Source of the DNA: a virus
Length of the DNA stretch: 20,546 bases
Virus record (IMG/VR): IMGVR_UViG_3300037504_000569
Coordinates: 1 to 20,546 of that record
Reading direction: 5' to 3' (one strand)
Shown: positions 5,221 to 18,637 of the stretch, piece after piece
How positions within the stretch are numbered: position 1 is the stretch's first letter
How the letters are laid out: each line of letters opens with the position of its first letter
The notes under the pieces: model-generated
Seen by the model: the letters and a program-made list of their open reading frames with translations, nothing else
Database searches by the model: none
What the model was told of the DNA's origin: nothing
Translations under genes and position numbers: made by a program

Positions 5221-5760
5221 ATGGTTAATGAATCGTTTAGCGAGTGGATAATAGACGAGGTTCAAAAGCGGGATTGGAGTTACTCTGAGCTAGCCAGGCA
5301 AGCGGGGATGTCTTCCGCTCAGGTTAGTATGGTTGTAAATGGTCGGAGTAATCCGGGTGAGAAATTTTGTCGTGGGGTAGCACACGCCTTTCGGGTTTCA
5401 CCTGATATAGTTTTTCGAAAAGCTGGCTTACTTCCTGATGTACCTGCTAGAGAGGAGACGGAGCAGAATCTCCTTTATAAGATCAGGCAGCTGGACCCCG
5501 AGGGTCGCGAGCGCGTGGCTGAGTTTTTGGAGTACCTGGATTATCAGAGGCGCTCTGATCGGGGAACTGCGCCCACGCTTGGAGATCTTGCGGAAGCCGA
5601 TGCCTACAATTTCCTTCGGAATGGCGGTAAGACGTTGGAACTCCAACGGTTGCTGGGGCATACGTCGTTGGCGATGGTCAAACGATATGTGGCTATTGCG
5701 GAGGTGGATCTGGAGAGGGCACACCGAAGGGCGTCACCGGTGAGCAACTGGGATTTGTGA
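5221..5760 (+). CDS. Xre-type repressor fused to a tyrosine-recombinase tail
   Basis: 179 aa. Residues ~20-60 are a Cro/CI-type helix-turn-helix (YSELARQAGMSSAQVSMVVN). Residues ~129-179 are unmistakably the C-terminal end of a XerD-like integrase: FLRNGGKTLELQRLLGHTSL with H147, then MVKRY with the would-be nucleophile Y156, then AHRRASPV. The recombinase Arg, Lys and HxxR residues are absent, so it cannot recombine alone. It is probably a DNA-binding repressor whose tail was captured from an integrase and may serve in multimerisation. Position between divergent promoters supports an immunity repressor. Possibly translated from a leaderless mRNA. Confidence 0.8.
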   Translation: MVNESFSEWIIDEVQKRDWSYSELARQAGMSSAQVSMVVNGRSNPGEKFCRGVAHAFRVSPDIVFRKAGLLPDVPAREETEQNLLYKIRQLDPEGRERVAEFLEYLDYQRRSDRGTAPTLGDLAEADAYNFLRNGGKTLELQRLLGHTSLAMVKRYVAIAEVDLERAHRRASPVSNWDL

Positions 5761-5780
5761 GGACGTGGATGAAGTGTTAA

Positions 5781-5813
5781 GCCCCCGACCATCGAAGTGG
5801 TCGGGGGCTTTTT
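5781..5813 (+). terminator. Intrinsic terminator after the repressor
   Basis: A perfect 10-bp stem GCCCCCGACC/GGTCGGGGGC with an 8-nt loop is followed by TTTTT. It ends the repressor transcript and also faces the end of the leftward early operon. Confidence 0.93.
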
Positions 5814-5844: not shown

Positions 5845-6108
5845 CTACTTAGAATGCCATTTCCACGTGGTCAAATCGAACCTGGCCACGACGTGGGGTT
5901 CTGGGTCACTGCGTAGCTGTACACATAAATCGAATGTGATCCAGTCCTCCAGATCGATATCGGATGAATTGGTAGCATTTTGCATATCCTCCATAATCGC
6001 GGTTTGAATAGGTGGCGTTGCGCACCACCCGTCGCCTCCGCCAGTGGCGAGGGTATACACGTGCTGGTTTTCGTCGAATTCTGGATAGTCTGGGATTCGC
6101 TTAGTCAT
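5845..6108 (-). CDS. Hypothetical early protein
   Basis: 87 aa, unrecognised. Sequence is acidic in the middle (DIDLEDWITFDL) and ends in a Trp/Lys-rich tail (TTWKWHSK). No cysteine pairs or membrane segment. The ATG follows GAGGAGAAGATAAAA and, 21 nt upstream, a hairpin cassette (6130-6158). It is the last gene of the leftward early operon. Confidence 0.65.
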   Translation of the reverse strand: MTKRIPDYPEFDENQHVYTLATGGGDGWCATPPIQTAIMEDMQNATNSSDIDLEDWITFDLCVQLRSDPEPHVVARFDLTTWKWHSK

Positions 6109-6129: not shown

Positions 6130-6158
6130 GCTCCGCCCGCTTGTTGGGCGAGCGGGGC
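6130..6158 (-). repeat. Hairpin-start cassette 1
   Basis: Minus-strand RNA stem with heptaloop CCAACAA, 21 nt before the 6108 ATG. One base differs from the consensus, giving an A-C mismatch in the outer stem on the minus strand. Confidence 0.85.
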
Positions 6159-6167
6159 TTCTACCTC

Positions 6168-6515
6168 TTAAAATCTGTATCCGCCGCGCTGATCCTCTAG
6201 CGCCTTTTTCATAGCATCATTATCTGTAACTGAGTATAGCGCAGCACAGAATTCATTTAGCTCGTTTGGCTCATCATATCGCCAATCCAGGTCGAGCAAA
6301 TCCATTGCTGCTCGGTAGTCCTGATTGCTTATTTCAATCGTATTTGGCTCTTCTTCGCAGGCTTCCCAGGCTCTCAGGCGATGGGAGCCGGTGAACGCAT
6401 ATTCGCCCGCGACAACTACGGGCGGTAATTCGCCACCCGATTCAAGATGCTTGATCATCTTTTGTAGTTTTTCCTGATCCATTGTTTCGTGAGGGGGAAA
6501 GTAGCCCAATGCCAT
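6168..6515 (-). CDS. ParB-like nuclease-fold protein
   Basis: 115 aa. ELPPVVVAGEYAFTGSHRLRAWEA is a compact ParB/Srx-type core: a strand pair followed by the G-x-HR-x-x-AW nucleotide-binding loop. No helix-turn-helix follows, so it is not a partitioning ParB. Related small domains occur in phages as CTP/ATP-binding or DNA-modification accessory proteins. The C-terminal half (LDLDWRYDEPNELNEFCAAL) is unrecognised. The ATG follows AAAGGAGATAAAA and a hairpin cassette. Confidence 0.7.
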   Translation of the reverse strand: MALGYFPPHETMDQEKLQKMIKHLESGGELPPVVVAGEYAFTGSHRLRAWEACEEEPNTIEISNQDYRAAMDLLDLDWRYDEPNELNEFCAALYSVTDNDAMKKALEDQRGGYRF

Positions 6516-6528
6516 TTTTATCTCCTTT

Positions 6529-6557
6529 GCCCCACCCGCTTGTTGGGCGAGCGGGGC
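6529..6557 (-). repeat. Hairpin-start cassette 2
   Basis: Same 29-nt hairpin, 13 nt before the 6515 ATG. The one substitution turns a G-C pair into G-U in the minus-strand RNA, so the stem is kept. Confidence 0.88.
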
Positions 6558-6610
6558 CTTGCCTTAAATAGGCGGGGCTTTTTGCTTAGATAAACTCGAT
6601 TGTGTGAGCT

Positions 6611-6634
6611 GCCCCGCCCGGTTAAGAGCGGGGC
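6611..6634 (-). repeat. Divergent hairpin between operon genes
   Basis: A shorter relative of the cassette: a 7-bp stem GCCCCGC/GCGGGGC with a different loop. It lies just after the stop of the 6652 gene and is not followed by a start codon. Between it and cassette 2 (6558-6610) I see no gene. Confidence 0.6.
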
Positions 6635-6651
6635 CTGTTGTTCATACTCGC

Positions 6652-6954
6652 TCAGGCATTATTGATATTCTGCGATCTCTTAATTGTGCGGCTTTTTCGT
6701 AGCTGACGAAAGGTGGCCGATAAAGCCTTTCCCTTAGGTGTGAGATGGGCAACCATCCCACACTTCAGGCAAGTACCTTCCCAAGTGCGGTCATCGTAAG
6801 TCACACAGGGCTTGAACCTGTGTCCATCCTCTCGCACTCTGGTCTGAGAGAGGGTGTTTGGATCTACCCCCTTTGTGCTTCCGCCGTGTACCTCGCACTC
6901 AGTGACAGACCGCCACTTAATCTGTGCGAGGAGCTGTGTAAGTGTCATCTCCAT
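6652..6954 (-). CDS. Small basic zinc-binding-like protein
   Basis: 100 aa, unrecognised. TCLKCGMVAH near residue 62 supplies one CxxC; C20-E-V-H and C50 could complete a site. The C-terminus is strongly basic (TFRQLRKSRTIKRSQ), as in nucleic-acid-binding proteins. The first of two close ATGs is used because GGAG lies five bases before it. Confidence 0.6.
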   Translation of the reverse strand: MEMTLTQLLAQIKWRSVTECEVHGGSTKGVDPNTLSQTRVREDGHRFKPCVTYDDRTWEGTCLKCGMVAHLTPKGKALSATFRQLRKSRTIKRSQNINNA

Positions 6955-6965
6955 TTTTCTCCTTT

Positions 6966-6995
6966 GCCCCGCCCGCTTGTTGGGCGAGCGGGGGC
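6966..6995 (-). repeat. Hairpin-start cassette 3
   Basis: Consensus hairpin with one extra outer G (30 nt), 11 nt before the 6954 ATG. Confidence 0.88.
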
Positions 6996-7000
6996 TTTGA

Positions 7001-7210
7001 TTATTTCAATGCCTCAAATAATGGTCGGGCTGGTGACATTACGTGCGGTTTCTTTTCTTCAATGTCCTCGCTTGCCCGATACCCACGCATTTCTACAAGT
7101 GTCTCATCATTCTCGGGACGCTCGTAGAATTCTGCGTACAGATTGTAAGTTGTATTGTGGTGCTCGCCTCCCGTGTAGTTTTTCAGATATACCCTGCCTA
7201 CCAAGTTCAT
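7001..7210 (-). CDS. Hypothetical early protein
   Basis: 69 aa, unrecognised. A short beta-rich N-terminus (MNLVGRVYLKNY, NLYAEFYE) precedes a charged tail. The ATG follows GGAGAAAAACG, 14 nt after a hairpin cassette. A reading that starts upstream runs through the hairpin and was not used. Confidence 0.6.
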   Translation of the reverse strand: MNLVGRVYLKNYTGGEHHNTTYNLYAEFYERPENDETLVEMRGYRASEDIEEKKPHVMSPARPLFEALK

Positions 7211-7224
7211 CGTTTTTCTCCTTT

Positions 7225-7253
7225 GCCCCGCCCGCTTGTTGGGCGAGCGAGGC
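7225..7253 (-). repeat. Hairpin-start cassette 4
   Basis: Consensus hairpin with one base change that gives a U-G wobble pair in the minus-strand RNA. It is 14 nt before the 7210 ATG. Confidence 0.88.
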
Positions 7254-7260
7254 GATAAAA

Positions 7261-7452
7261 TTATGTTCCGGGATCTACCCATTCGATTCGACAGCGAGGG
7301 CAGATAACCGGCTCAAACCTTGGCCCGTAGGGCTCGCCGACGTCGAGCTGCTCTGTCGGCTGCCCGCATTCGGGACAAATTTCGGGTGGCCCATCTGCTG
7401 CATTATCGCCCCACCATTCCCGGTGGTCCCATTTTTCGGTCGGTTTCTCCAT
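7261..7452 (-). CDS. Small zinc-ribbon protein
   Basis: 63 aa. CPECGQ near residue 28 and CPRCRIEW near residue 53 form a classic CxxC-x(~20)-CxxC zinc ribbon. The N-terminus is Trp-rich (KWDHREWWG). The partner is unknown. The ATG follows AAAGGAGAAGGTG, 13 nt after a hairpin cassette. Confidence 0.68.
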   Translation of the reverse strand: MEKPTEKWDHREWWGDNAADGPPEICPECGQPTEQLDVGEPYGPRFEPVICPRCRIEWVDPGT

Positions 7453-7465
7453 CACCTTCTCCTTT

Positions 7466-7494
7466 ACCCCGCCCGCTTGTTGGGCGAGCGGGGC
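7466..7494 (-). repeat. Hairpin-start cassette 5
   Basis: Consensus hairpin with the closing pair changed to G-U in the minus-strand RNA. It is 13 nt before the 7452 ATG. Confidence 0.87.
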
Positions 7495-7500
7495 CATACG

Positions 7501-7707
7501 CTAAATTATTATTGGCTCGTCCGTATCCCATCCGCGGGCGCGCTGGGCTGATTTTTCTCGCGGGGATCGGAACCGATTGAATCGTCCGCCGCCTCGGTGT
7601 CGCTGTGAGAGCTGCTGGAGGCAATTCTCGCAGAGGATCATTCCACCCGATTCGACCGGGATACCGCGGGCCAATCGGCCGCATTCGATGCAGATACCCT
7701 CATTCAT
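7501..7707 (-). CDS. Small zinc-binding-like protein
   Basis: 68 aa. CIECGRL (residues 5-8) and CENC (near 28-31) look like one zinc knuckle, followed by an Arg-rich stretch (RHRGGGRFNRFRSPRE) suited to nucleic-acid binding. The ATG overlaps the end of the upstream gene (ATGAATGA), so translation is coupled, and it is the one gene in this part of the operon without its own hairpin. Confidence 0.62.
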   Translation of the reverse strand: MNEGICIECGRLARGIPVESGGMILCENCLQQLSQRHRGGGRFNRFRSPREKSAQRARGWDTDEPIII

Positions 7708-8128
7708 AGCCAAGCTCTTCCTTCAGGCGCCGGACGATTCCCTCTTGCTCCTCCCGGCTCCGGACGTCGTCCGGGTTGTGCTCAATGGGAAAATCTCCCC
7801 AATCGAGCATACCCTGGTTGTAGCCGAGCATCCGGAGCTGGTGCTCTCGCTGCTCGCGAATCTTGTCGAGCTCGCGGAGGTAGGCCCATTTGCGGGTCTG
7901 GTCGTCCTCGATCTCCCCGGCGCTGATGGCGCCTGAGAGATACCGGAGGATCTCTGCGCTCGGCTCTGGCTGCTCGATGAGCTCGGCGGCCTTGCGGAGC
8001 GCGAAATCAATCGCCTCCAGCCTGCCGCTGTGCTCATTGGGATCGAGGGCCAGATGCTCGCAAATTTTTTCTAGGAGCGGGCCTCGCTCCTGTGATAATC
8101 GGACGTTGGTGTATTCGTTTCTAGGCAT
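7700..8128 (-). CDS. Hypothetical early protein, possible RHH N-terminus
   Basis: 142 aa, mostly helical and highly charged. The first ~50 residues (YTNVRLSQERGPLLEKICEHL and RLEAIDFALRKAAEL) have the strand-helix-helix spacing of RHH proteins, but the match is weak. The C-terminal half (RELDKIREQREHQLRML, REEQEGIVRRLKEE) could form coiled coil. An upstream start at 8215 would bypass the hairpin and overlap the 8175 gene; the ATG with AAAGGGAAA is preferred. Confidence 0.62.
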   Translation of the reverse strand: MPRNEYTNVRLSQERGPLLEKICEHLALDPNEHSGRLEAIDFALRKAAELIEQPEPSAEILRYLSGAISAGEIEDDQTRKWAYLRELDKIREQREHQLRMLGYNQGMLDWGDFPIEHNPDDVRSREEQEGIVRRLKEELGYE

Positions 8129-8139
8129 ATTTTCCCTTT

Positions 8140-8166
8140 GCCCCGCCCGCTGTGGGCGAGCGGGGC
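8140..8166 (-). repeat. Hairpin-start cassette 6 (short loop)
   Basis: Same stem as the other cassettes but with a 5-nt loop (CCACA), a 2-nt deletion. It is 11 nt before the 8128 ATG. Confidence 0.87.
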
Positions 8167-8174
8167 GATAAAAT

Positions 8175-8327
8175 CTACACGAATGGAATTCGGTAGAACT
8201 GAATTTTTCCGACATCGTCCAGATTTTTCCCGTGCGGGGAGGTCCAAACCTGGATTTCTAAGAAATGCTTCCCCCCCCTTTTCGTCCGCTCTGCCTTTAC
8301 ACTGATTCCTGCGATCTTGAAGTACAT
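8175..8327 (-). CDS. Small hypothetical protein (50 aa)
   Basis: 50 aa starting MYFKIAGISVKAE and ending FYRIPFV, alternating hydrophobic residues that suggest a small beta sheet. Unrecognised. It is supported by position: ATG 11 nt after a full hairpin cassette, stop eight nt before the next cassette, and same strand as its neighbours. The Shine-Dalgarno is weak (AAAGAAAAATT). Confidence 0.55.
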   Translation of the reverse strand: MYFKIAGISVKAERTKRGGKHFLEIQVWTSPHGKNLDDVGKIQFYRIPFV

Positions 8328-8338
8328 AATTTTTCTTT

Positions 8339-8367
8339 GCCCCGCCCGCTTGTTGGGCGAGCGGGGC
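8339..8367 (-). repeat. Hairpin-start cassette 7
   Basis: Exact consensus 29-nt hairpin with an 11-bp stem and CCAACAA loop, 11 nt before the 8327 ATG. Confidence 0.88.
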
Positions 8368-8377
8368 GATAACCTAT

Positions 8378-8569
8378 CTAGAAGCTGTGGGCATCGATTG
8401 CGCTTGCGTCGACGCTTACCTCGCGCCCATCGGGCAGCCGGATCGCCACTTGCTCTCGATGGCGCGGATGTTTACCGGCCTTCGGCGCTGGCCCGATGTA
8501 CTTAACCTTGGTTCCGGCTTTCACGCTCTCTCCGTCTACTTTTACGCTATGCAGTAATTTAGGCATCAT
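8378..8569 (-). CDS. Small SH3-like hypothetical protein
   Basis: 63 aa. LLHSVKVDGESVKAGTKVKYIG and VAIRLPDGREVSVDASAI suggest a small beta barrel. Unrecognised. AAAGGAG lies five bases before the first of two adjacent ATGs. Instead of the cassette it has an unrelated small hairpin (8581-8595) before the ribosome-binding site. Confidence 0.6.
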   Translation of the reverse strand: MMPKLLHSVKVDGESVKAGTKVKYIGPAPKAGKHPRHREQVAIRLPDGREVSVDASAIDAHSF

Positions 8570-8580
8570 TTGTCTCCTTT

Positions 8581-8595
8581 GGGGATTCATTCCCC
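8581..8595 (-). other. Unrelated hairpin before a ribosome-binding site
   Basis: On the minus strand GGGGA-ATGAA-TCCCC is followed directly by AAAGGAG and the 8569 ATG. Its sequence is unlike the cassettes but its position is the same, which suggests selection for a hairpin next to the start. Confidence 0.5.
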
Positions 8596-9068
8596 TACTT
8601 GATCTTGGTTATTGAATCTAAGTTCCAAACCACCAACTGTTCGAAGTAGCCGCGATTTTCCTCATCGCGGTACCAGTACCCATCATATCCCTCGTCTTTC
8701 AGGTATTGAGCCGTCAGCCACCTGAAGCCACCTTCATCTCCCTGTGCGTCGAAGATGGCTCGAGTTTTCTCAGGGAGGTCTTCCGGGGATTTTTCTTCCC
8801 CGGTCAGGTAGCCATTCTCGATCATCCATTCCCGGGCGGCTCCCAGGTCGATGTCCGAGTAGTTGATGATGTTGTCCATCTCGACATCGACCTCTAGGGT
8901 TTTCAGAGAATGGTCCTGGAGATGAGTCCGCCAAATCTCGGGGTTTTGGGTGAGGTAAATCCCAGTCCCCAGATCGTCGCCGCCATTCTGGCCGACGAAC
9001 TCTAAAGAGAATCCGTTGTCTTTGATTTTCTGGATATTTTCCTCTTGGGTTAGGTGTTGAAATCTCAT
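8595..9068 (-). CDS. ADP-ribosyltransferase-like protein
   Basis: 157 aa. MRFQHLTQEENIQKIKDNGF followed by GDDLGTGIYLTQNPEIW has the H...G-x-GIY pattern of ADP-ribosyltransferases with a PARP-like (H-Y-E) arrangement, and the end YFEQLVVWNLDSITKI fits the third motif with its glutamate. Phage ADP-ribosyltransferases modify host RNA polymerase or other targets early in infection; the target here is unknown. Family call is by motif only. Longer in-frame readings upstream run through the promoter and were rejected; the chosen ATG has GGGAG five bases before it. First gene of the early operon. Confidence 0.5.
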   Translation of the reverse strand: MRFQHLTQEENIQKIKDNGFSLEFVGQNGGDDLGTGIYLTQNPEIWRTHLQDHSLKTLEVDVEMDNIINYSDIDLGAAREWMIENGYLTGEEKSPEDLPEKTRAIFDAQGDEGGFRWLTAQYLKDEGYDGYWYRDEENRGYFEQLVVWNLDSITKIK

Positions 9069-9104: not shown

Positions 9105-9137
9105 ATTATATTGTACCACAATGTGGTACATTGCCAA
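9105..9137 (-). promoter_or_regulatory. Leftward early promoter
   Basis: Minus strand: -35 TTGGCA (9132-9137) and a -10 at TACAAT (9110-9115, 16-bp spacing); TATAAT (9105-9110) overlaps it by one base and could be used instead. It drives the 10-gene leftward operon from 9068. Confidence 0.6.
9112..9130. promoter_or_regulatory. Perfect 19-bp palindromic operator
   Basis: TGTACCACAATGTGGTACA consists of two perfect 9-bp arms around one base. It lies between the -35 and -10 of the leftward promoter, a classic position for a repressor. I saw no second copy in the window. The Xre repressor is the obvious candidate binder but this is inference. Confidence 0.75.
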
Positions 9138-9205
9138 GTCGAAAACAGCCTCTAATCTTAAAGTTTTTGGGCAAAATAGGGGGGTTTTTGGGCGAGTCAT
9201 TTTGC

Positions 9206-9241
9206 AGGCAGCGCACATAACGCCAATTATTCCAACTGGCT
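9206..9241 (-). other. dif-like palindromic site E
   Basis: Arms AGCG-CAC-ATAA and TTAT-TCC-AACT around a 6-bp centre CGCCAA. It lies between the leftward early promoter and the rightward promoter at 9262, at the border of the early and late regions. The outer arms are more degenerate than at site A. Confidence 0.5.
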
Positions 9242-16618: not shown

Positions 16619-18637
16619 ATGAGGTTTTTTGATCGCGTCCGGCGGGCCTTCCGCGAATTCGCGGGGCCACCGGCGATGCCGAAGCCGCGCAAGAAGGAAA
16701 AAGAGCGCACGCTACTATCGAAGCCGCGGTCGGGGCGGCCCGATGCGACGCTCCTGCGCTCTGTGGCGGAGCAGGTGGCCGTCGTTCGGGCGGCGATCAA
16801 TGCCAAGAAACGCCACGTCACGGCGTTGCAATACCAGGTCGAAGGCCCGGATGATACCACAGCTCGTATGCTAGAGGATTTGCTGGCGGAGCCGATGCCG
16901 GGCTACTCCTGGCGCCAATGGATTTCCGAGGTGCTGGAGGACGTGCTGGTGCTAGATGCGGCCTGCATTTATCCGTGGCCCACGCGCGGCGGCGATCTCT
17001 ACGGTCTGATGCCGGTCGACGCGGCCACCATCGCCAAAATCCCTAACGATCAGGGTATCCTGCCAGAACCGCCAGAGACTGCCTACGAGCAGCAGATCGA
17101 CGGCGTGACCGTGGCGAGCCTGACGACGGAGGAGCTGATCTACGAATCAATGAATCCACGCCCTCAATCGCTCTACGGCCTGAGCCCGACCGAGGTGGTG
17201 TTGCACACGGCCTTGACGATGTTGCGGCGGATGACCTACGCGGCGGATGAGATTGACAGCTCGAATGTCCCGGCCTTCTTTGGCGAGGTGCCCTCGGGGT
17301 GGACCACGGCGCAAATCTCAGAATGGCAGGATTACTGGGATGCGATGGTCGAAAACAAGCCCCATCGGGGCGTGTGGGGGCCGGCCGAGATGAACGCGAC
17401 GTTTCCTCCACAACGCCAGATAGATATTGATTTTGACACCTACCTGGTGCGCCTGGTGTGCGCGGTGTTCGAGGTGCAGCCGCAGGAGCTCGGTTTCACG
17501 ATGGACGTCAACCGGGCGACGGGCGATAGCCAGGAGGTGATCACGCAGCGGCGCAGCGTACGACCGCTGGCGGGTTTGATTGTTGAGGCGGTCGATCAGG
17601 TTTTCGGGCTCTACGATTATGGCGATTATGGCCTGGTGTTCCCCGGCCTCCAGGAGCGGGCGCGGGCGGAGATTCGCGAGGATGCACGCACGTTGGTGCC
17701 GATTGGCGTGCTGACGCCGAATGATGTGCGAGGTGATTTGGGCCTGGAGCCGCTGCCGGGCGGTGACACGCCACAACGACCGGGGCTAGGTGGGATGGGC
17801 CTTTCGCAATCGCGTCGGTCTGAGCTGGCGGGCAAAATCCTGCGGGCCGAGGATGAGGTAGTGATCGACCCGCTGGGGCCAGATGACAACAATGTGCTGC
17901 TCGCCATCGAGGACGAGGCGGTCAAGGCCGTGATTGAATCCGGCGCGGACGTCGACCTGCGGGCGTTGCTGAAACCGATTGACGAGCGATTGATGGCCGG
18001 CGAGGAGATCGATGACGACCTGATCGATGAGCTGGCTGATGAGATAGGCGCGGCGCACGGCAATGAGCTGGCGCGTCTGACGCCCAATTTGGTCGAGATG
18101 GCGCAGTCGGGCGTGGATGCCGCGGCCGCGGCCTTCGCTGAGGCGATGAACATCACGCTGGATTGGAGCCTGGCGAACGCGGACGCGGCGACCTGGGCGC
18201 GGGAATATGGCTATGAGCTAATCCAAGGCCTGAGCGAGACGACGGCCAAGCGCGTGGGGGCCGAGCTCGGGACGTGGGTCGAGGCGCGGGAGGATTTCCC
18301 GGCGCTGGTGGACCGCCTGGCGGCCATTTTGCAGGATGAGGCACGGGCGGAACTGATCGCCTCCACCGAGGGCACGCGGGTCTACGCTGAGGGCAACCTG
18401 GTTTCCTGGCGGCAGGCGCGGGATGAGCTGGGCCTGACGTTTGTCAAGGTCTGGCGCACCGCGCGGGATGATCTGGTTTGCCCACTTTGTGGGCCAATGG
18501 ACGGGCAGCGAGCGCAGCTGGACGCTCAGACGTGGCACCACGCTAGCAATGCGGATAAGAGCGTGGGGATGACAGTCTCGGCGCCGCCGATGCATCCGCG
18601 CTGTCGGTGCTGGCTGGTCACGGCGGTGCAAGTATGA
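16619..18637 (+). CDS. Portal protein fused to MuF/SPP1-gp7-like minor head protein
   Basis: 672 aa. Residues ~1-390 are a phage portal (SWRQWISEVLEDVLVLDAACIY, YGLSPTEVVLHTAL, VNRATGDSQEV), the ring at the capsid vertex through which DNA is packaged. Residues ~480-672 match the head-morphogenesis family Mu gpF/SPP1 gp7: FVKVWRTARDDLVCPLCGPMDG with CxxC (621/624), then PPMHPRCRCW (H659, C662, C664). In most phages these are separate adjacent genes. The join (~390-480) is an acidic linker. Next gene starts inside its last codons. Confidence 0.85.
   Translation: MRFFDRVRRAFREFAGPPAMPKPRKKEKERTLLSKPRSGRPDATLLRSVAEQVAVVRAAINAKKRHVTALQYQVEGPDDTTARMLEDLLAEPMPGYSWRQWISEVLEDVLVLDAACIYPWPTRGGDLYGLMPVDAATIAKIPNDQGILPEPPETAYEQQIDGVTVASLTTEELIYESMNPRPQSLYGLSPTEVVLHTALTMLRRMTYAADEIDSSNVPAFFGEVPSGWTTAQISEWQDYWDAMVENKPHRGVWGPAEMNATFPPQRQIDIDFDTYLVRLVCAVFEVQPQELGFTMDVNRATGDSQEVITQRRSVRPLAGLIVEAVDQVFGLYDYGDYGLVFPGLQERARAEIREDARTLVPIGVLTPNDVRGDLGLEPLPGGDTPQRPGLGGMGLSQSRRSELAGKILRAEDEVVIDPLGPDDNNVLLAIEDEAVKAVIESGADVDLRALLKPIDERLMAGEEIDDDLIDELADEIGAAHGNELARLTPNLVEMAQSGVDAAAAAFAEAMNITLDWSLANADAATWAREYGYELIQGLSETTAKRVGAELGTWVEAREDFPALVDRLAAILQDEARAELIASTEGTRVYAEGNLVSWRQARDELGLTFVKVWRTARDDLVCPLCGPMDGQRAQLDAQTWHHASNADKSVGMTVSAPPMHPRCRCWLVTAVQV

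Follow-up and report, generated by a model that had tools for sequence, protein, structure and literature searches.

The early operon and its junction hairpins

The stretch of DNA analyzed here, hereafter the window, is a virus record of 20,546 bases from IMG/VR. It represents a temperate phage, with genes for a tyrosine integrase, a Cro/CI-type repressor, an amidase, a terminase and other late functions. In a search confined to Chloroflexota, terminase relatives with 46 to 47% identity over the C-terminal third were found in two genomes of that phylum, a mere hint that the host might belong to it. No integrase relatives were detected in viral contigs by pattern search. At the left end of the phage, two identical 37-nt direct repeats situated 72 nt apart (positions 19 to 127) resemble a CRISPR mini-array. 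The adjoining gene on the minus strand (260 to 1726) codes for a 488-residue TnpB/Cas12f-like nuclease, nearly all of whose NCBIfam matches are far below the cut-offs; it may represent a divergent phage type V effector.

Ten small genes, mostly orphans, form a leftward early operon on the minus strand between positions 5845 and 9068 (8595-9068, 8378-8569, 8175-8327, 7700-8128, 7501-7704, 7261-7452, 7001-7210, 6652-6954, 6168-6515 and 5845-6108). The early promoter (TTGGCA-16-TACAAT; 9110 to 9137, minus strand) overlaps a palindrome, TGTACCACATTGTGGTACA, and the operon ends at an intrinsic terminator with a 14-bp stem (5779 to 5810; U-tract on the plus strand). The noncoding leader upstream of the promoter (9109 to 9230), which contains GGCGTTATGTGCGCTGCCTGCAAAATG, is 87% identical in contig G002, and part of it (9127 to 9230) is 88% identical in contig G404; the adjacent genes differ in both. 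By eye, the product of the first operon gene (8595-9068, minus strand) is like a phage ADP-ribosyltransferase-type protein (GTGIYLT ... YDGYWYRDEENRGYFEQLVVWN), and it matches no Pfam or NCBIfam family. The repressor gene (5221 to 5760, plus strand) codes for an N-terminal HTH domain followed by a C-terminal segment of approximately 50 residues that shares 79% identity with the C-terminal end of a tyrosine recombinase of G002 and G404, a candidate fusion or attachment-site remnant.

An 11-bp GC hairpin occurs seven times on the coding (minus) strand of this operon. All seven copies are entirely intergenic and precede the ATG codons at 8327, 8128, 7452, 7210, 6954, 6515 and 6108 by 11, 11, 13, 14, 11, 13 and 21 nt, respectively, which confirmed the seven near-identical hairpins 11 to 21 nt before seven genes of the original prediction. 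A search of the minus strand with a 21-nt core yielded six exact or one-mismatch matches and one copy with a 5-nt loop, where shuffled sequences are expected to give none. Six of the copies have the 29-nt form GCCCCGCTCGC-CCAACAA-GCGGGCGGGGC or are one change away from it. The CCAACAA loop that had been described as general is thus present in these six, but the copy at 8166 has CCACA instead. Searches for homologues of hairpin-led genes, two of them in phages and one in Chloroflexota genomes, found none.

Following the direction of transcription, copy 1 (8339 to 8367) has an 11-bp stem, a 7-nt loop and a predicted energy of -25.0 kcal/mol, and it lies 10 nt past the stop of gene 8378-8569. Copy 2 (8140 to 8166), with an 11-bp stem and the 5-nt loop, is found 8 nt past the stop at 8175. 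Copy 3 (7466 to 7494), 6 nt past the stop at 7501, has a G-U pair at its base; copy 4 (7225 to 7253), 7 nt past the stop at 7261, has an extra U-G pair; and copy 5 (6966 to 6994), 6 nt past the stop at 7001, has an end mismatch or a 1-nt bulge. Copy 6 (6529 to 6557), with an extra G-U pair, is the exception in not being beside a stop, the nearest one being 94 nt away. Copy 7 (6130 to 6158), 9 nt past the stop at 6168, has one broken C-A pair.

All eight nonoverlapping gene junctions within the operon hold some hairpin: the 29-nt element at six, a variant plus the element at one (6652-6515), and a weak 5-bp hairpin at the last. The variant (6611 to 6634, minus strand) combines a 9-bp stem and a TTAACC loop with the outer arms of the element; it lies 17 nt past the stop at 6652, and no start codon follows it directly. 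The 5-bp hairpin (GGGGA/TCCCC; 8581 to 8595, minus strand; z = -1.5) is unrelated to the element and is located at the stop of the first operon gene, before the AAAGGAG of gene 8378-8569. The first operon genes of the window and of G002, which have a start but no gene before them, lack the element. The probability that a single random 29-mer falls wholly between genes is 0.076, and the copies are not independent of each other.

AAAGGAG had been predicted to follow the hairpin usually. It does so exactly after four of the seven copies (7494, 7253, 6994 and 6557), but the other three carry AAAGAAA, AAAGGGA or AAGTCCGAGGAG instead. As the exact motif accompanies only these four, no Shine-Dalgarno sequence follows a copy in G002 (at 7377), and gene 8378-8569 has AAAGGAG without the 29-nt element, the Shine-Dalgarno sequence is no fixed part of the element. 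We also considered a coding origin of the hairpin, which reads APLAQQAGG in one frame, and rejected it because the hairpin-to-ATG distances fall in all three frames, i.e., the frame is random.

Copies of the hairpin in four phages

A search of IMG/VR with an exact 19-nt core retrieved two other contigs, G001 (119 kb) and G002 (35.5 kb), both from sample 3300037826. A looser stem search of viral contigs added G405 (49 kb; sample 3300037504) with two copies, bringing the total to 13 copies in four phages; apart from this, loosened stem patterns matched mostly terminators of other phages. The hairpin at 8367 in the window is letter-for-letter the same as those at 7377 in G002 and at 17246 in G001, the 5-nt-loop hairpin at 8166 is identical to that at 16995 in G001, and the G-U variant at 6557 is identical to that at 1687 in G405.

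A comparison of gene content between copies, as proposed with the original prediction, revealed that different genes adjoin the hairpin in the four phages. Pairwise protein comparison detected no protein common to all four, with some genes common to pairs; between the window and G001, just a methylase fragment matched at the protein level. The upstream flanks of the copies show no significant similarity to one another (p = 0.066). Since a single phage holds different alleles that are found again in other phages, exchange of individual copies would fit better than amplification within one lineage.

In G405, a nearly identical segment of approximately 57 nt follows the hairpin in both copies (L376 1577-1687 and 2336-2434, minus strand); additional hairpins are predicted ahead of the start codons. 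The same 22-nt palindrome occurs near both ends of this contig (L376 24-45; G405 48910-48931), possibly as a terminal repeat or a circular overlap.

Positions 6589 to 6634 of the window are 93% identical to the end segment of the G002 operon. In G002 a terminator follows this segment, and in the window two more hairpin-led genes do. Thus, in this one comparison, the two operons share the leader and the operon-end segment and differ in the genes between, which is what the joining of hairpin-bounded genes would leave. The idea that the hairpin is a cassette that spreads genes is plausible. In its strict form, it would make the hairpins recombination joints without a regulatory role: cassettes would be shuffled at an identical 29-bp sequence, similar to the PeSLs of T4-like phages, and the hairpin would be kept only as homology. 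The presence of one hairpin next to orphan genes that are unrelated among the four phages, the shared operon ends and the recurring loop and stem alleles all agree with this. However, homology alone does not call for a hairpin, and the stem has nonetheless been retained through deletions in the loop and one in the left arm. In addition, no gene has so far been encountered in two states, one accompanied by the hairpin and the other lacking it. We regard such purely recombinational joints as unlikely.

Stem pairing and position at the junctions

The predicted energies of the seven window hairpins on the coding strand range from -18 to -25 kcal/mol, far below those of shuffled sequences, and the opposite strand folds nearly as well (-17 to -24 kcal/mol). 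The in-stem substitutions in the window comprise three C-to-T changes that keep the pair and one G-to-A change that breaks it, and one more copy has an end change. The earlier statement that substitutions mostly keep pairing as G-U is therefore literally true (three of four), but as evidence for function as RNA it does not exceed chance: the probability of at least three pair-keeping changes out of four is 0.31 by hand calculation, because half of the transitions in a GC stem keep a pair. The proposed search of relatives for the hairpin and its covariation produced the three further phages, but no two-sided, compensatory change was present at any stem pair among the 13 copies. A shuffle control for pairing equaled or exceeded the real value in 441 of 500 trials with the 13 copies. 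Stem cells are paired at 97.8% versus 41 to 55% with the register slid, a control that favors any consensus-derived structure. The hairpin is conserved by identity, and covariation reveals neither RNA nor DNA function, so that RNA pairing is not separately demonstrated. No match to any of the 4227 Rfam models was obtained.

Loop lengths of 7, 5 and 3 nt occur among the copies with the stem intact, and a 4-nt left-arm deletion in G002 still leaves a 9-bp stem. These variations suggest that the stem, not the loop, is what counts. A phage protein binding to the loop, as had been put forward, is disfavored because the loop varies in length and no protein common to the four phages is detectable.

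An inverted repeat that recurs along the early operon of a temperate phage might be a double-stranded DNA operator for a repressor, in the manner of a stoperator; the ESAS of cluster K mycobacteriophages, which were judged more likely to be involved in DNA binding (PMC3203893), count in favor of this explanation. Nevertheless, the copies are in one orientation only, a symmetric position of the repeat is always asymmetric (U-G), the putative operator palindrome within the early promoter is unrelated in sequence, and the four phages have repressors that are either diverged or not detected, which makes an operator very unlikely. Still less probable in our view are partial terminators or attenuators that would act between genes and be bypassed by antitermination. 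The strong GC hairpin after each stop speaks for them, but no copy is followed by a U-tract, unlike the operon terminator at 5779-5810 (plus strand), and there are no promoters at the junctions. Intrinsic termination was rejected for these stems devoid of U-tracts, as were junction promoters, since the promoter-like sites of the coding strand are confined to the beginning of the operon (9137-9110 and 9314-9285). Thus, with neither junction promoter nor U-tract, the hairpin fits neither a PeSL-type promoter-terminator nor a simple terminator.

Regarding position, the preceding stop codon lies 6 to 13 nt upstream in 12 of the 13 copies (10, 8, 6, 7, 6, 9, 8, 9, 11, 13, 10 and 9 nt), all but the window copy at 6557. 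The next start codon is 10 to 21 nt downstream in 11 copies, including the G002 copy at 7752, which precedes the ATG at 7788. This placement would suit a start-associated translational element that raises or regulates initiation, perhaps via a bound protein. In G405, however, the hairpin stands at the head of a longer intergenic segment that is duplicated, and the starts are 73 and 81 nt away from the two copies; the variable loop and the lack of a detectable common protein weigh against a bound factor. Moreover, the predicted accessibility of the ribosome-binding site was no better than with a shuffled insert (the value for the G002 copy at 7752 was obtained with a start one base late, the others being unaffected). 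Exposure of the ribosome-binding site by the hairpin was rejected, as shuffled inserts do equally well, and a start-associated element appears rather improbable. The 'start cassette' of the original prediction thus holds for the spacing of 11 copies, but the stop is at least as tightly tied to the hairpin. The variant hairpins at 6634 in the window and at the end of the G002 operon also follow stops and directly precede no gene. Because the gap to the stop is the tighter constant, the G405 starts are distant and the variants end genes without a new start, we conclude that 'intercistronic, post-stop' describes the element better, with the proviso that compact packing constrains both distances and by itself would put any intergenic insert near both a stop and a start.

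A possible barrier between cistrons and its relation to known elements

A predicted stable hairpin is thus present on the coding strand between a stop and the next start, with identical copies next to different genes in four phages. We tentatively propose, with a little less than even confidence, that it is a short palindromic intercistronic element (approximately 29 bp) that functions as an RNA hairpin where the cistrons of a polycistronic early mRNA meet, is exchanged among phages that share hosts or habitats, and separates cistrons. The small number of independent phages known to carry it weighs against this proposal. The stem would start at the front edge of a ribosome that occupies the stop codon. 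For this reason, the most likely role we infer is that of a barrier between cistrons, which would slow the terminating ribosome or limit its run-on into the next gene, or block 3'-to-5' decay of the upstream message. Identical hairpins would in addition serve as homology for recombination events that add or swap genes. In Escherichia coli, REP hairpins less than 16 nt from the stop lower translation and stall ribosomes (PMC12306157). The stop-hairpin geometry seen here is the same, which is a likeness of position and no proof of a common effect.

A broader proposition is that a phage-borne hairpin without promoter or transposase spreads between unrelated phages, marks the boundaries of exchangeable early genes and gives new genes a junction that insulates their expression; we hold it to be possible, though doubtful. 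Little is understood of the means by which phages acquire small early genes and immediately express them as part of a common operon. The 29-nt junction element, identical in four phages that otherwise differ, represents a concrete, testable joint, from which predictions follow on the sites of gene entry into operons and on the insulation of a newly arrived cistron from those beside it. The hairpin could also serve as a sequence tag to find phages with a common gene pool.

The element has the features of REPs in being a GC-rich imperfect palindrome of 20 to 40 nt, extragenic, downstream of genes and within 15 nt after stops, and it might be a REP-like or MITE-like mobile element of the host that landed in phage genomes. 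Unlike REPs, it is phage-borne, occurs in few copies, each single and all in one orientation, and was not found in the sampled chromosomes. No GTAG or CGTC tag is present at either end in the flanks of the copies, and no RAYT (Y1 transposase, PF01797) was found in the four phages. CGTC REPs likewise lack an associated RAYT. The many chromosomal copies typical of REPs were not seen in the sampled genomes: neither 400 Chloroflexota genomes nor 158 genomes of one class held a convincing copy, the weak single matches in Chloroflexota being rejected as unrelated by eye, and none was seen among the matches listed from genome contigs. Repeated start-proximal hairpins of other sequence, sought in three Chloroflexota prophage regions, were ordinary terminators only. 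A host-derived mobile palindrome is improbable.

As described in PMC4503421, the PeSLs of T4-like phages (Arbiol 2010; Comeau 2014) are promoter-terminator units, and the archaeal virus HGTV-1 has a similar motif before many ORFs (PMC3950731). According to these descriptions, the likeness lies in a repeated stem-loop at the junctions of small orphan early genes and in a link, here putative, to gene shuffling; the window-G002 comparison, with shared ends and different genes between, is the one case that bears on such a link. The hairpin differs from the PeSL as described in having neither promoter nor terminator, its unit being stop-hairpin-(ribosome-binding site).

The resemblance in layout, but not in sequence, to the start-associated sequences (SAS) of cluster K phages that had been pointed out initially was supported by our comparison. 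The ESAS are 17-bp imperfect inverted repeats with a 4- to 13-bp spacer, directly upstream of SAS, for which RNA pairing found no support (PMC3203893). Both elements are repeated in one orientation, with an inverted repeat before the starts of many nonstructural genes, and the hairpin is directly upstream of a start in all seven window copies and in 11 of 13 overall. It differs from the ESAS by its 11-bp arms, its loop of 3 to 7 nt, the absence of an SAS, the preservation of the stem and the stop codon as its tighter neighbor. No match to the SAS consensus GGGATAGGAGCCC with at most two mismatches was found before gene starts, the sole two-mismatch match being on the wrong strand inside a gene, and the consensus is not enriched in the window (11 matches with at most three mismatches versus 7.9 expected). 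The hairpin thus resembles REPs, the PeSLs of T4-like phages and the ESAS of cluster K, departs from each in a defining property and is a member of none of them; we file it among repeated palindromic junction elements.
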